From positions 1 to 22,180 of the IMG/VR virus record IMGVR_UViG_3300009610_000096: a stretch of 22,180 nucleotides of DNA; one strand, written 5' to 3'. The stretch is from a virus. The translations under genes and the position numbers were made by a program. The notes beneath the pieces were generated by a model that ran no database searches, was not told where the DNA came from, and saw only the letters and a program-made list of their open reading frames with translations. How positions within the stretch are numbered: the stretch's first letter is position 1; the number at the start of each line of letters is the position of its first letter. This document shows positions 2,627-16,685 of the stretch, piece by piece.

Positions 2627-2692
2627 TTATAATCGGGCTGCGCCCAGCGACTGAAGGTCGCGAACCAGGGCGCGAACCAAGCCCGATTATAA
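2627..2692 (-). promoter_or_regulatory. Nested intergenic hairpin with two identical 6-nt bulges
   Basis: Perfect 13-bp outer arms (2627-2639 and 2680-2692) enclose a 6-bp stem GCGCCC/GGGCGC (2640-2645 and 2668-2673) and an inner 5-bp stem GCGAC/GTCGC (2647-2651 and 2657-2661) with a 5-nt loop. In the mRNA sense, both bulges on the 5' side read UGGUUC and each is followed by GCG, making a tandem TGGTTCGCG repeat. No U-tract follows on either strand, so it does not look like an intrinsic terminator. It sits between the stop at 2697 and the start at 2594 and is far more GC-rich than its surroundings. Confidence 0.85.
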
Positions 2693-7207: not shown

Positions 7208-7558
7208 CTAGTTAGGGAATTCCTGATCTTCACTTGGATAAAAAATATAAGTCTGCTGCACTAAATTGCAGCTTCCCCCTTCAACATAAGGAGGATAGTT
7301 TGTAGAGTCAATAGGTAAAAATGTAATCGGATCTTGCAAAGTAAATGTTGTATCACTCGTCACAATGATCCTGAACTTGTAATTATTGAGAGGATCAACG
7401 CCTCTATGTATAGGTATAGAGCTATTTAAGTCTGTTAAACGAACAAACGAATGAGTCGAAAAACCATGAGCTTCTTCTGTCGTCACTTCACATGGAAGAG
7501 CATTCGTAACATCTACAATATTCACTCTTTCTGTAAGCTGTCCAATTGGGGCACTCAT
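7208..7558 (-). CDS. Small virion protein made of one FCCH-like beta domain, 116 aa
   Basis: The 116-residue protein is nearly all one domain. Residues about 28-100 share with the 253-aa protein encoded at 8286-9047 the pattern R-x-T-D-L-x-S-x-x-P-x-x-R-G-x-D-x-L-N-N, then TTF-x-L-x-D-x-IT, then PIDST-x-Y and YV-x-GG. They are clear paralogues. The domain resembles the beta module annotated as E1 FCCH-like in phage proteins; that name reflects fold similarity, not ubiquitin activity. The start overlaps the stop of the HNH gene (ATGA), and its upstream ribosome-site bases lie inside that gene's last codons. Decoration or fibre-base function is plausible but unproven. Confidence 0.8.
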   Translation of the reverse strand: MSAPIGQLTERVNIVDVTNALPCEVTTEEAHGFSTHSFVRLTDLNSSIPIHRGVDPLNNYKFRIIVTSDTTFTLQDPITFLPIDSTNYPPYVEGGSCNLVQQTYIFYPSEDQEFPN

Positions 7559-8181
7559 TTCCCGTGTTCCTTGTTATGACACTCTCTGCACAACCAGATT
7601 ACTTCTAAGGGCTTGCTGTAATCAGGATGATGGCCTTCTGGTTTACATTCTTTTAAACACCTTGAACAACTTGTGGGTCGGATTAGTACTCCAATCTCAA
7701 CCGCATAACTTACCAACAATCTAGCCTTTACTTTATGTGGATCATTTTTTCTCTGATTGCTAGCTGATCTTCTTCCATATTCTTTTACTTTTTCTGGATT
7801 TTTTAATCTCCACTCTTTGTCTGATTGTTTTTTTTCTTGTGCGTAAACTTGTCTATATAATTTATTGTATTCTTGTCTTTTACTTTTAAACTTTTGATAT
7901 GCTTTCTTACTACTTTTTTTATTGCTTTCCGTAAGAATTTTTTGATTATTTAATTTCCATTTTTTGTGTCTATCAATAAATTTATTAGGATCTCTTGTAT
8001 ATTCTCTCTTTGCATATTCTCTAGATTTTTTTAAATACTCTTCTCTGTTTTTATTTTTAAATTCCTTAATCTCTAAATTTCGACAAATTTTGCATTTTGC
8101 CGTTAATCCAGATTTTGTTCTTTTACAGGAATGGAATTCATTTTCAATTTTTTCAATTTTACATTTTCTACATATTTTCAT
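7555..8181 (-). CDS. HNH homing endonuclease (HNH3), 208 aa
   Basis: The N-terminus (MKICRKCK, then C19 and C30-x-x-C33) is a small zinc-binding module of the type that precedes phage HNH domains. Residues about 35-150 are a long Lys/Arg/Tyr-rich helical region, likely DNA-contacting. The C-terminal nuclease has CSRC, EGHHPDYSKPLEVIWLCREC and CHNKEH, i.e. the paired Cys and the HH, N/D and CxxCH elements of a treble-clef HNH. The gene separates two paralogous virion genes, is more AT-rich than they are, and ends in an ATGA overlap with the next gene. Unlike the other two HNH genes here it is co-oriented with the late genes. Its ribosome site AAGGGAG is inside a hairpin. Confidence 0.88.
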   Translation of the reverse strand: MKICRKCKIEKIENEFHSCKRTKSGLTAKCKICRNLEIKEFKNKNREEYLKKSREYAKREYTRDPNKFIDRHKKWKLNNQKILTESNKKSSKKAYQKFKSKRQEYNKLYRQVYAQEKKQSDKEWRLKNPEKVKEYGRRSASNQRKNDPHKVKARLLVSYAVEIGVLIRPTSCSRCLKECKPEGHHPDYSKPLEVIWLCRECHNKEHGK

Positions 8182-8183
8182 AG

Positions 8184-8209
8184 CTAGACTCCCTTAAAAG
8201 GGAGTCTAG
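8184..8209 (-). promoter_or_regulatory. Hairpin sequestering the ribosome-binding site of the HNH3 gene
   Basis: Two perfect 12-nt arms (8184-8195 and 8198-8209) are separated by two bases, forming an mRNA stem CUAGACUCCCUU/AAGGGAGUCUAG. The 3' arm contains AAGGGAG, the only Shine-Dalgarno-like sequence at the right distance (7 nt) from the ATG at 8181, and its complement CUCCCUU is in the 5' arm. If the hairpin forms, ribosomes cannot load. The same layout is known for homing endonuclease genes of T4-type phages, where it limits translation from read-through transcripts. Confidence 0.85.
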
Positions 8210-8220
8210 TCTATTTATTC

Positions 8221-8268
8221 TTATTTTTCAACACCTAGATCTGTAATCCTTATGTTATAGAACGCAAG
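8221..8268 (-). pseudogene. Possible remnant of a duplicated FCCH-like segment
   Basis: Between the 253-aa gene and the HNH hairpin, one frame reads LAFYNIRITDLGVEK then stop, with an in-frame stop just upstream. IRITDLG also occurs inside the 253-aa protein. The DNA at 8233-8253 matches 8647-8666 closely (about 17 of 21 bases in an ungapped comparison by eye). It has no start codon, so it is not a gene. It may be debris from a duplication or from gene conversion around the endonuclease insertion. The match is short. Confidence 0.4.
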
Positions 8269-8285: not shown

Positions 8286-9047
8286 TTAGCTTAAATCACC
8301 TAAATCAGTTATCTGGCCCCACTTATAAACCTCCACCAAAAACACATCGTTGTCACTTTGCATCACATCTGTGCCTGCTGTAAGCTGATAAACGATCGGT
8401 TTAAAGGCGTATGGATTAGGAACATACGGTGTTACATCATATGGGCTGACTTCTGGATTATTTAAACTCAGGACCGCAGTCTCGAGTGTTAATCGTCCAC
8501 CTGACACATAAGCTGTATACGCTGTTGAGTCAATAGGCTCTCCAGTAATTACATCTTTTAGTGAGAATGTGGTAGCAGTGAGAACAACGATTCTGAACCG
8601 TAGGTTATTCAACTGGTCCATACCACGAGCTGTAGGCATATCGCTCCCCAAATCGGTAATCCTTATAATTTGATTGGTTTGGAATGTAAAAGTACTATGC
8701 GTAATCACACAAGGATCAGCTTGTGTAATACCTGAAATAGTCGCATGGTATGAATCCACACCACCTGCTGTATCCGCAACAGTAAATCCATTTGTACTGG
8801 CATCTTTAAAGTTGAAAGATTGAGCTGCTGCTGAATCAATTACAGTCTCTTGAAAAGCATGCGCTGTTGTTGTTTGACCACGAAACCAAACGGAAATTGG
8901 ATCTCCGCCTGCTGTTGCAGTCCACTTGGTAAGGTTGTTAAATACTACCTTATCAGGCTGAAAGTCGAATGAAAATGTATGAGCAGCACCAGCAGATATA
9001 AATTTATATGCCGCTGTCATTGTCTGCCCTTGAAATAAGTCTGACAT
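8286..9047 (-). CDS. Virion (probable decoration/head) protein with FCCH-like domain, 253 aa
   Basis: Encoded 11 bp after the capsid gene with a strong AAGGAGG ribosome site. The N-terminal half (residues 1-98) is beta-rich and includes TAAYKFISAGAAHTFSFDF, a pattern compatible with a capsid-surface protein. Residues about 100-190 are the FCCH-like domain shared with the 116-aa protein at 7208-7558 (RITDLGSDMP, RGMDQLNNLRF, TTFSLKD, PIDSTAYTAYV). The C-terminus ends KWGQITDLGDLS. Position directly after the major capsid gene and strong translation signals suggest an abundant head protein, for example a decoration protein; this is inferred. Confidence 0.78.
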   Translation of the reverse strand: MSDLFQGQTMTAAYKFISAGAAHTFSFDFQPDKVVFNNLTKWTATAGGDPISVWFRGQTTTAHAFQETVIDSAAAQSFNFKDASTNGFTVADTAGGVDSYHATISGITQADPCVITHSTFTFQTNQIIRITDLGSDMPTARGMDQLNNLRFRIVVLTATTFSLKDVITGEPIDSTAYTAYVSGGRLTLETAVLSLNNPEVSPYDVTPYVPNPYAFKPIVYQLTAGTDVMQSDNDVFLVEVYKWGQITDLGDLS

Positions 9048-11097: not shown

Positions 11098-11126
11098 AAT
11101 ACCTCGCGTGTGTCATCATGTTGCAT

Positions 11127-11699
11127 ATGGAAATCAATTGCGCTTTTTGTCATAAAGTTTTTAAGACTCAACTTTGGAAGACAAAAAAATATAAAAATCT
11201 TTTTTGTTCTTTTGAATGTGCTACTGAGTTTAAGAAAAAACAAGTTGAATTGACTTGTCATTGTGGCAATAAATTTTCTGTTGCAATTTTCCGATTGTCT
11301 AAAAGTAAAACAATTAGTTGTTCTACAAAATGCGGATATAAAGCTATCAAGCTTAATGCGCAAATCACTAGGCAATGCAAATTTTGCGGAAAAGATTTTA
11401 GTTTTCCAAAATCTAGAGCAAAATATTCTAAAAAAGAATTTTGTTCTCTCATTTGTAGTAATAAATCTCAACCACGAGGAAAACAAGACAGTAATTATAA
11501 ACATGGAATAGGAAGATATAGAGAAATTGCTTACTCTAATTTTTCTAAAAAATGTACTTTCTGCAATAAAATAAAGAAATACATGGATGTACATCATAAA
11601 GATCATAATCGTCTTAATAATGACATTTCTAATTTGATTATTTTGTGTCGCAGTTGCCATCTTAAACATCACAAATCACATCCCACTCATCCCCCTTAA
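11127..11699 (+). CDS. HNH endonuclease with tandem Cys4 modules (HNH1), antisense to late genes, 190 aa
   Basis: The ATG at 11127 is chosen over that at 11118 because it gives the same M-x3-C N-terminus as the paralogue HNH2. Three zinc modules follow, spaced CX2CX18CX3C; the second has CHC in place of CxxC. Then comes an NYKHG linker and a C-terminal HNH domain: CTFC, MDVHHKDHNRLNN, ILCRSCH, KHH. The gene lies on the strand opposite to all virion genes and fills the gap between a 70-aa and a 131-aa gene. Its last 24 bases overlap the 3' end of the 70-aa gene. No ribosome site is visible. A weak promoter candidate (CAGACA-17-CATCAT, 11091-11119) ends seven bases before the ATG. Likely a free-standing homing endonuclease. 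Confidence 0.85.
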   Translation: MEINCAFCHKVFKTQLWKTKKYKNLFCSFECATEFKKKQVELTCHCGNKFSVAIFRLSKSKTISCSTKCGYKAIKLNAQITRQCKFCGKDFSFPKSRAKYSKKEFCSLICSNKSQPRGKQDSNYKHGIGRYREIAYSNFSKKCTFCNKIKKYMDVHHKDHNRLNNDISNLIILCRSCHLKHHKSHPTHPP

Positions 11700-11941: not shown

Positions 11942-12721
11942 ATGATTGTTCATTGTGCCAAGTGCGATAAATCGTTTGAAACTTATCCCTATAAAATTAA
12001 AAAGCACAAACATCTTTTCTGTTCTACAATTTGCCAGTATGAATTCAAAAAAACTAGTAGCATTCTTAAATGTAGAATATGTGAAGCATTTTTTCAAATA
12101 GCAGCACATAGAATTAAAAATCAAAAAGAATGCTTTTGTTCTAAAAAATGTGCTAACAAAGCCCTTGAAGTTCCTAGAATTACTACTAACTGCAAAACTT
12201 GCGGAATTGAAATTCAATTTCTTGAATCTAGACTTAAACATTCCAATCGCGGTTATTGTTCTCTTCCATGTTTCTATAAGAATCAAAAAACAAGAAAAAC
12301 TCATTTTTGCGAAGCATGCAATAAGGAATTTCTTGTAGCACCTTCTGAAGAAAAAAACAAAAGGGGAAGATTTTGTTCCAAAACTTGCTATAGTTCGTTT
12401 TGCAAAAAAGAAAATTCTCCTAATTACAAACATGGACATGGCTGGTTTAGAAATATGTCTAGAGAAACGAGATCTAATAAATGCGAGATCTGCGATAAGA
12501 TTGGAAAAACAGATATACACCATATCGATGGTAATGAGAGAAATAATACTAACAGCAATTTTATAACTGTTTGTAGAAGTTGTCATATGCGTATACACCA
12601 TCTTTCTGGTAGAAGAGGAATACCAATTAAAAAGTCTCTAGAAATATTTAAAATCATCAGATTGCTCCCTCCCCACTCTCGTTCGACATGGGAGCTTGTT
12701 GAGAAGCTAAAGACTGAGTGA
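11942..12721 (+). CDS. HNH endonuclease with four tandem Cys4 modules (HNH2), antisense to late genes, 259 aa
   Basis: Four consecutive modules with identical spacing CX2CX18CX3C: C5/8/27/31, C44/47/66/70, C84/87/106/110 and C123/126/145/149. A SPNYKHGHGWFR linker and an HNH domain follow (CEIC, DIHHIDGNERNN, VCRSCHMRIHH). The module array is presumably a multi-finger DNA reader feeding a treble-clef nuclease. It is a paralogue of HNH1, with one extra module. The final 20 or so residues are encoded on the strand opposite the portal gene's 3' end (65-bp overlap), so the native C-terminus may have been extended after insertion. It is oriented against the late operon and has its own promoter candidate. 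Confidence 0.88.
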   Translation: MIVHCAKCDKSFETYPYKIKKHKHLFCSTICQYEFKKTSSILKCRICEAFFQIAAHRIKNQKECFCSKKCANKALEVPRITTNCKTCGIEIQFLESRLKHSNRGYCSLPCFYKNQKTRKTHFCEACNKEFLVAPSEEKNKRGRFCSKTCYSSFCKKENSPNYKHGHGWFRNMSRETRSNKCEICDKIGKTDIHHIDGNERNNTNSNFITVCRSCHMRIHHLSGRRGIPIKKSLEIFKIIRLLPPHSRSTWELVEKLKTE

Positions 12722-15022: not shown

Positions 15023-15955
15023 TTATGCCTTTTTTGCTCGAGGTCGGCATTTATTGCAACAACTAGATCTATCATGAATAACTGTACAAAGTTTAATTTT
15101 TCTTATATTTCCGCAATGACATTTTACTAACGCTAAAGAGTTAGAAGTTATTTTACCTTTATCTAATATTTCTAATATTGTTTGAGTACCAAAAGTTTTT
15201 CCTTCTAATTCTTCAACCGTAAGTTTTCTTATTATCCTTTTTGGAATGTCATGTTTTTTTATACTTTTATCAATCTCTACCCTTTTCCAGATTTCTTCTC
15301 TTAAAATTTGATATACACTTGAGTTTCTTATATTAAATATTTTGCATAATTCTTTTATTGAATACATTCCAGAAAAATATAGTTCCTTTAATTCTAAAAT
15401 TTTAGAAATATTAAATTTTGTTCGAGAATTATTATCCCCCGTCCTATTTTCATATTTTCCACATCCACAAGATTTGTTTTGATAAAAATTCTTAGTACTG
15501 TAAAATTTTTTATTACCACATTTGCAAATACATTCAAAAAAAGTCCTACTTCCAATTAATTTAGCATCTATAATTTTTAGTTTACCGTTTTTTAATCCTA
15601 TCATTTCTTTTTTTCTCTCAAGACATCTAAGTGCCTTCGTTATTCCAGTACGGAGTTCACATCCACACGACATACAACTTTTATTTACAATTTTTGTTAT
15701 TCCACAATCACATCGCGCCTCATATTTACTATTACCCATATGTTTTAAAAATGTTAACTTTCCTTGTTTAGTGCCCTCAAAACTTTTCACTTGACATGAT
15801 TTACATTTTGATTTTATCTTACTGAATTGTTTGTTTATTTCTTTGCCACATTTACATTTTAATTTATAAAATTTGTTATATTTTATTTTTATAATATCTA
15901 TAACTTCTCTATCGCCTATCTTATCACCTATTTTATAAGGAAGTATTTTTTCCAT
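15023..15955 (-). CDS. Zinc-ribbon/HTH DNA-binding protein of the homing-endonuclease type, no nuclease domain seen, 310 aa
   Basis: The ATG at 15955 has AGGA five bases upstream and is preferred to 16000, which has no site. Four Cys4 ribbons of CxC...CxC or CxxC type are visible: C34/36/51/54, C82/84/97/99, C144/146/163/165 and C279/281/300/303. Modules two and three carry the G-x-L-x-(F/I)-(L/I) lead-in and SCGC ending. Between modules three and four (about 180-226) is an HTH of the kind found at the ends of phage HNH proteins (ELKELYFSGMYSIKELCKIF, then SSVYQIL...W). This combination normally accompanies AP2/HNH homing enzymes, but no HNH, GIY-YIG or LAGLIDADG motif is present. It is very AT-rich and overlaps the ParB-like gene by 23 bp. 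Confidence 0.7.
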   Translation of the reverse strand: MEKILPYKIGDKIGDREVIDIIKIKYNKFYKLKCKCGKEINKQFSKIKSKCKSCQVKSFEGTKQGKLTFLKHMGNSKYEARCDCGITKIVNKSCMSCGCELRTGITKALRCLERKKEMIGLKNGKLKIIDAKLIGSRTFFECICKCGNKKFYSTKNFYQNKSCGCGKYENRTGDNNSRTKFNISKILELKELYFSGMYSIKELCKIFNIRNSSVYQILREEIWKRVEIDKSIKKHDIPKRIIRKLTVEELEGKTFGTQTILEILDKGKITSNSLALVKCHCGNIRKIKLCTVIHDRSSCCNKCRPRAKKA

Positions 15956-16685
15956 ATTCTTCCTGTAATTTTGAGTGATTTTTGAAATTGTAAATTTCAA
16001 TAAGCAATGAATACCACTCTTGAGCGTTTCTTTGAGGTTTCAAGTCAAACCAACGAATATCTAGCTTTTTGAAAAATGTTTCCTTGTCAAATCCTGATGT
16101 ATTAAAAATCCATCTAAATGCCCTTGTGAAATTATGATTTGAAAACATACTAGATGGTGTGATGCGCTTATCTTTTACGTAAGCAGAAAAATCGTAGTAA
16201 AATTCCAATATCTCATTAGGATCTTCCTTCTCGGGAAAAATGAATCTACCACTCTTTACGAACTCAAGAATGCTTGAAGTTAAACAGCCTAAAATTAATG
16301 TCAAAAGGGCTTTAGGCCTAAGTCCAGACGCGTTTAACATTTTTCTAAGTAAAATATACTCAGGTTTTTTTTGTCTTATGCAAAAATAATCGATACGATC
16401 TTCGATGCGAGAGGCCTGTTGTATGCGAGCACTGAGAGCGTGTTCATCCCGAACAGTATCAGACTTAATGTAATAGATATTAAGACCAAGCTCCTTGGCT
16501 ACTTGTAATCTATGTTGACCATCGATAACATAGAAATCCTTGTTTACAATGATGGGATGCAATTCAAGTTGATTATCTTCTTCAATTGCTTTCTTAAGTT
16601 TTCGAACATGAATATTTAATAATTTAGGATTTCCATCCATGATCTTGAATTTTTTGTAATTTTGTGTGACTAATACTTCTGACAT
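15933..16685 (-). CDS. ParB/Srx-like nuclease-fold protein, 250 aa
   Basis: Residues about 27-75 match the ParB N-terminal-like fold: an IHVRKLKKAIEE helix, HPIIVN, then YVIDGQHRLQVAKELGL with the DGQHR signature (D55-R59), and IYYIK. In ParB-fold proteins this loop binds nucleotide (CTP in ParB itself), and some phage members are nucleases or modification cofactors. The remaining 170 residues are helical and I do not recognise them. A strong AGGAGG ribosome site precedes the ATG. The 3' end overlaps the next gene by 23 bp. Role in this phage is unknown; partitioning, DNA nicking or regulation are all possible. Confidence 0.75.
   Translation of the reverse strand: MSEVLVTQNYKKFKIMDGNPKLLNIHVRKLKKAIEEDNQLELHPIIVNKDFYVIDGQHRLQVAKELGLNIYYIKSDTVRDEHALSARIQQASRIEDRIDYFCIRQKKPEYILLRKMLNASGLRPKALLTLILGCLTSSILEFVKSGRFIFPEKEDPNEILEFYYDFSAYVKDKRITPSSMFSNHNFTRAFRWIFNTSGFDKETFFKKLDIRWFDLKPQRNAQEWYSLLIEIYNFKNHSKLQEEYGKNTSL

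Follow-up and report, generated by a model that had tools for sequence, protein, structure and literature searches.

A free-standing HNH endonuclease gene in a P22-like phage operon, its buried ribosome-binding site, and a candidate sigma70-like promoter inside the hairpin

How might a selfish nuclease gene reside within a phage structural operon without being expressed at the level of that operon? The question is raised by the virus record IMGVR_UViG_3300009610_000096 of IMG/VR, of which a stretch of 22,180 bases (the window, abbreviated W) was analyzed. The window carries a portal gene of P22-like type (PF16510, E = 2e-47) and, on the minus strand, a structural operon, and a free-standing HNH gene lies between two genes of this operon. 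The names fcch and fcch2 are labels used here for these neighbors, taken from a weak E1_FCCH match.

8286..9047, minus strand: upstream gene fcch, FCCH-like structural protein, 253 aa; weak E1_FCCH match below the cut-off; orthologues in about 80 contigs
7555..8181, minus strand: free-standing HNH-type endonuclease gene, 208 aa (PHROG 2340)
7568..7572, minus strand: AAGGA, probable Shine-Dalgarno sequence (SD) of fcch2, inside the 3' end of the HNH gene
7208..7558, minus strand: downstream gene fcch2, 116 aa, short paralogue of fcch; weak E1_FCCH match below the cut-off

The product of the HNH gene matches the PHROG 2340 endonucleases (E = 6.8e-32), and a Pfam search of the same product returned no hit at 1e-3. 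A C-x2-C motif and the C-terminal EGHHxDYxKPLEVxWLCxxCH, which supply the HNH and zinc residues, are kept in six relatives; motif and family together predict nuclease activity. The stop codon of the HNH gene and the ATG of fcch2 overlap as ATGA, and the 3' end of the HNH gene places AAGGA before the fcch2 start, so that the neighboring gene retains an SD. The first-pass annotation of this DNA had likened a hairpin at the HNH start to those of T4-like phages that keep neighbor genes expressed, an idea that the position of AAGGA supports only indirectly. Just after the fcch stop (8239-8220, minus strand), and likewise in the relative loci L002 and L086, a short out-of-frame peptide can be read (RITDLGVEK, RITDLGVEV or RLTDLGIEK, each followed by a stop) that resembles the C terminus of fcch (ITDLGDLS), as would a duplication remnant or a frameshift extension.

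The hairpin directly precedes the start codon of the HNH gene and consists of the following elements.

8198..8209, minus strand: 5' arm, CUAGACUCCCUU (inverted repeat, fold, covariation)
8184..8195, minus strand: 3' arm, AAGGGAGUCUAG, containing the SD (inverted repeat, fold)
8189..8195, minus strand: SD, AAGGGAG, 7 nt before the ATG at 8181-8179

The arms at 8184-8195 (CTAGACTCCCTT) and 8198-8209 (AAGGGAGTCTAG) are 100% complementary over 12 bp, with a gap of 2 nt, and AAGGGAG is located at 8195-8189, 7 nt from the ATG at 8181, both as originally annotated. When perfect 12-nt repeats with at least five G/C and a gap of 2 to 12 nt were counted, one was observed in the window against 0.025 expected per shuffled window. 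As RNA, the isolated hairpin forms 11 pairs around a 4-nt loop at -17.9 kcal/mol; the minus strand from 8290 to 8130 folds at -34.2 kcal/mol (z = -3.86), with 0 of 200 shuffles equally good. On modeled read-through RNAs starting at 8300, 8400, or 9060, the probability that the SD core GGGAG is unpaired is 0.000. This predicted accessibility supports the earlier proposal that a read-through transcript would sequester the SD, whereas the accompanying statement that the SD is paired along its whole length holds for the core only, the two leading A's of AAGGGAG being partly free at the loop. As in T4 I-TevI, the SD lies in a stable hairpin on RNA initiated upstream. Elsewhere in the window (2627-2692), a 13-nt perfect inverted repeat (TTATAATCGGGCT/AGCCCGATTATAA, 40 nt spacing) lies upstream of the gene at 1971-2594.

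Further gene starts in the window were folded, and none had its SD in a stem of this kind directly adjoining the start codon. Two more HNH-family genes (PHROG 1271) are located at 11118-11699 and 11942-12721 on the plus strand, opposite to the operon; both lack a clear SD and a hairpin and, being antisense to the operon, would not be read through. A further gene (15023-16000, minus strand), which overlaps the 3' end of the gene at 15933-16685, matches PHROG 374 (HNH endonuclease) and contains an HTH_7 domain; no SD hairpin was found on folding its start near 15955. Thus, the design is not universal even among the HNH genes of this window. An intrinsic terminator was considered and rejected, given that on the minus strand the stem is followed by CUAUGAAAAUAUG, with no U-run, and that the terminator scan flags the stem on the plus strand only. 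No known RNA family of Rfam was matched in the window.

If the read-through message is closed, translation of the HNH gene could depend on a transcript that carries the SD but not the 5' arm, and a candidate promoter for such a transcript overlaps the hairpin.

8226..8231, minus strand: predicted -35 element, TTGAAA, separated by 17 nt from the -10 element (promoter scans); TTGAA-17-TAGACT is also found in L002
8203..8208, minus strand: predicted -10 element, TAGACT, within the 5' arm (promoter scans)
8194..8198, minus strand: predicted transcription start zone, at about 8196 in the hairpin loop

A standard promoter scan identified TTGAAA-17-TAGACT (8231-8203, minus strand) with 9 of 12 matches, a moderate score, and this site alone is not significant, the region having 8 such sites where chance would give 7.1. 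When 160 nt were searched with a weight matrix, the same site came out first, its predicted start at 8196 falling between the two arms, in their 2-nt gap. Promoters were scored throughout against a sigma70-like consensus, which may not be that of the host. On model RNAs starting at 8195 or 8196, the SD core is only about 0.5 unpaired. The annotated expectation that a transcript starting within the hairpin would free the SD is therefore borne out in silico, by the best-scoring promoter of the 160 nt and by the modeled opening of the SD. A promoter whose RNA would lack the 5' arm is thus predicted with moderate strength for the window and strongly for the set of relatives; because the site in the window is moderate, it is the comparison with relatives that carries the case for a promoter.

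Relatives (loci numbered L001 and up) were found by scans with the HNH and fcch genes; a search of genome contigs yielded only two. The scans recovered 12 distinct HNH genes at the site between fcch and fcch2, along with many empty sites. An SD-burying hairpin abuts the start codon in 12 of these 12 genes. The mean probability that the SD core is unpaired was 0.019 for them, compared with 0.49 for the SD of fcch2 where the site is empty (38 sites; P = 8e-7), and the mean promoter scores were 6.63 and 1.08, respectively (P = 1.5e-7), among relatives that are not fully independent of one another. The comparison with HNH-free relatives, which the first-pass annotation had suggested, thus came out in favor of the hairpin, the empty sites leaving the SD of the next gene unburied. 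Covariation was assessed on 11 hairpins that align in one register, 10 from the site in question and one (L022) from an HNH gene elsewhere. Of the stem cells, 95.5% are paired, compared with 83.5% in column shuffles and 32 to 52% when the partner is slid, and 7 of the 10 stem pairs are altered on both sides. Divergence of the arms without compensation, named beforehand as grounds for abandoning the hairpin, was accordingly looked for, and the outcome favored the hairpin. The pairing, its conservation, and the placement of the promoter signal are directly visible in these sequences.

The contig of L003 also contains L085, in which fcch and fcch2 are almost identical to those of the window but the HNH protein is only 49% identical. 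The hairpin of L085 (CCCTCCTAGATATA/TATATTTAGGAGGG) is unrelated in sequence to that of the window and alike in design. Because near-identical flanks here enclose a different HNH gene and an unrelated hairpin, the hairpin, and with it the promoter, is best read as part of the HNH cassette, traveling with the cassette rather than with the phage. In L102, the gap after fcch contains a hairpin and an ATG (ACTAGGACTCCCGTAAAAAGGAGTCTTAGTATG) with no HNH frame, probably the scar of a lost HNH cassette.

Mobility of the cassette is indicated by a single contig that begins with the allele of the window (L001) and ends with an HNH-free allele (L086). Comparison of the two alleles over the 1,200 nt upstream of the insertion gives 37 differences, every one of them in the final 208 nt leading up to the fcch stop; on the downstream side, the first 114 nt of fcch2 contain three.

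8286..8493, minus strand: putative co-conversion tract, with 37 differences from the HNH-free L086 and none in the preceding 992 nt

Co-conversion during homing leaves differences crowded beside the insert. The empty allele and the tract resembling co-conversion support recent homing, and the comparison of L086 with the window and L001 shows what is expected of a mobile gene: an empty allele, a near-identical genome, and donor-like flanks. The gap between fcch and fcch2 (8286-7558 in the window; L085 to L164) is an insertion hot spot for more than HNH genes. It accommodates small Cys-cluster genes of YkgJ-like appearance in L087, L091, L095, L114, L137, and L158; L115 to L117 have an orphan frame of 57 aa in this gap.

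SD-burying hairpins also occur in HNH relatives that occupy other sites in unrelated phages: the mean local fold z at these HNH starts is -2.60, compared with -0.25 in 300 control genes. Across the broader HNH family, the hairpin is confined to roughly one-third to one-half of the genes. In a set of 30 hairpin-bearing HNH genes, the highest-scoring promoter with a start inside the hairpin averaged 7.50, versus 4.15 in dinucleotide shuffles (the mean of which had a standard deviation of 0.31) and 3.28 for control genes taken from the same contigs (P = 6e-14). The signal forms a sharp peak upstream of the HNH starts, with predicted transcription starts at -20 to -11 (6.77 versus 2.41). The -10 element is an exact TATAAT in 9 and TATACT in 6 of the 30 genes; the -35 element, scored independently of the choice of -10, is enriched (z = 4.4, or 3.3 when just one W-like member is retained), with spacers of 17 to 18 nt preferred. 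Such a pair of elements at such a distance would be recognized by a holoenzyme of the sigma70 type. T4 late promoters have no -35 element; the enriched elements here fit TTGACA-17-TATAAT, with a -35, and are not of that type.

A held-out test was conducted with criteria declared before a further scan. The first pass, underpowered with only 7 starts that had an SD, showed no difference and failed as declared. The motif filter, which had dropped many HNH genes, was loosened after this first look, and only unused starts were admitted, giving a wider set of 56 starts with an SD, six sequences of which had been seen beforehand. In this set, hairpins were found at 18 of 56 HNH starts and 8 of 146 control starts (P = 2.5e-6), the promoter score in the declared window was 5.61 versus 2.11 (P = 6e-5), and promoters starting in the hairpin scored 7.94, the shuffled sequences reaching 3.84 (combined P = 2.6e-11). 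The wider set is read as a replication, with the change of filter as a caveat. Among named phages, the HNH genes of 000TH009 and Moonbeam have SD-pairing stems, and those of mEp013 and mEp515 have no comparable hairpin. In L069 and L077, terminator-like stems lie directly upstream of the HNH starts, before the SD, which is not buried; these are perhaps an alternative block to read-through.

Taken together, the gene is probably a homing-endonuclease gene of the free-standing HNH kind that carries its own lock against read-through, together with a sigma70-like promoter that starts transcription in the loop of the lock. The late-operon read-through message would carry both arms, the hairpin would bury the SD, and the HNH gene would stay silent while fcch2 is translated from its own SD on the same message. 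From the promoter with its -10 element in the 5' arm, a separate short message would start in the loop (at about 8196). Beginning at the SD and lacking the 5' arm, this message could not re-form the stem, and the HNH gene would be translated. The start site, the translational block, and cleavage by the nuclease are in this sense deductions from sequence. Locked on the read-through RNA and open on the short RNA, the gene would supply nuclease at the modest level of its own promoter rather than at that of the late operon.

Could the hairpin instead belong to the operon, as an attenuator, a leaky terminator, or a stabilizer of mRNA ends after the capsid genes, which the HNH start merely abuts? 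Most empty sites indeed have a hairpin in the intergenic gap after the capsid-side gene, followed by a T-run in several (L094, L110, and L128), and in the window and several other loci the HNH hairpin is the sole strong one in the gap. The hairpins of HNH-free gaps (for example, L094, L100, L110, and L128) are nearly universal and diverse in sequence, and are likely an expression step-down element or an mRNA stabilizer. However, they leave the next SD free and come without a promoter signal, as the scores given above indicate; a resident hairpin and an SD-burying hairpin stand side by side in L091, L130, L138, and L151; HNH genes elsewhere in unrelated phages share the SD-burying form; and the hairpin of the window has no T-run in the minus direction. 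This alternative is therefore largely refuted and considered improbable, although part of the role of the hairpin in the window could come from the operon's own hairpin. Its simplest version, a plain site-derived hairpin, is ruled out by the contrast with empty sites and by the loci that hold both hairpins.

The lock might also be opened by other means than an internal start, such as a change in temperature, cutting of the stem by an RNase, or an RNA or protein acting in trans. SD-burying stems elsewhere act as RNA thermometers or small RNA targets, as exemplified by ISPpu9 (PMC8450116), and the internal start at about 8196 is a prediction. Against this, the internal promoter signal is strong, well positioned, and replicated, and the arms share no conserved sequence that a common ligand could recognize. 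A stem of about 10 to 14 bp at -15 to -20 kcal/mol, as found here, is both too stable and too short to act as a thermometer or an RNase III site. Release by these routes is accordingly unlikely, and the internal start is the preferred way of opening the read-through lock.

Least probable, and very doubtful, is that the palindrome serves mainly as a DNA site, for example, an operator for autorepression by the HNH protein. In its favor, the palindrome and the predicted promoter overlap, the arm sequence CTAGACTYC is common to close HNH relatives and differs in more distant ones, and I-TevI is described, in work cited within PMC3014915, as repressing its own promoter. On the other side, the SD is always within one arm, and where stem cells are not Watson-Crick pairs, most are G-U (8 cells, versus 5 unpaired, 4 of these at the loop-closing pair), which an RNA stem tolerates and a DNA palindrome does not. 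Such a role could coexist with that in RNA.

The read-through lock has close counterparts among known mobile genes. In IS10, IS50, and others, the transposase SD is hidden on read-through RNA, and the element's own promoter yields an open message. The HNH gene resembles these elements in being a mobile gene shielded from impinging transcription; they differ in that the transposase lies within inverted repeats and is under dam and antisense control, and there is no homology. For the T4 genes I-TevI, I-TevII, I-TevIII, and segB and for mobE of Aeh1, hairpins hide the SD in early and middle transcripts, and late promoters give RNA without the 5' part of the hairpin (PMC2988022, PMC3014915). The parallel with the T4 homing endonucleases drawn in the first-pass annotation is apt, the logic being the same (PMC2988022): a selfish gene, an SD buried on read-through, a promoter whose RNA would lack the 5' part of the hairpin, and a hairpin that varies in sequence while its structure is retained. 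Conversely, the T4 genes rely on phage late promoters and temporal control, whereas here the predicted promoter is sigma70-like with a -35 element, its -10 usually lies within the 5' arm or at the arm's base, and the setting is a P22-like genome in which an unrelated-looking HNH gene of PHROG 2340 is read through from a structural operon. A counterpart of T4 late timing is neither shown here nor expected from the sequence. Deletion of the I-TevI hairpin disturbed splicing and did not reduce viability (PMC2988022, PMC3014915), so that prevention of toxicity should not be assumed as the purpose here. In Aeromonas phage 25, a very stable hairpin lies directly upstream of the homing endonuclease gene seg43(25) and leaves the SD free (PMC2988022). 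Both this gene and that of the window are preceded by a hairpin, but only the latter's buries the SD; the terminator-like stems of L069 and L077 resemble seg43(25) in this respect.

Hairpin control of homing endonucleases has so far been known mostly from a few T-even cases linked to late promoters. On balance, we lean toward the view that free-standing HNH genes of many non-T4 phages are generally insulated by a promoter inside a hairpin, a device which would have arisen repeatedly with different arms, would move with the nuclease gene, and would allow insertion into highly expressed operons without overexpression. If so, the same hairpin logic would be common in unrelated phages, with an ordinary sigma70-type promoter within a hairpin whose sequence turns over while the design stays. 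This would provide a simple sequence signature for finding such endonuclease genes, would allow small reporters to be used for asking why the control of endonucleases has to be so tight, and would explain how selfish genes can reside within late operons.
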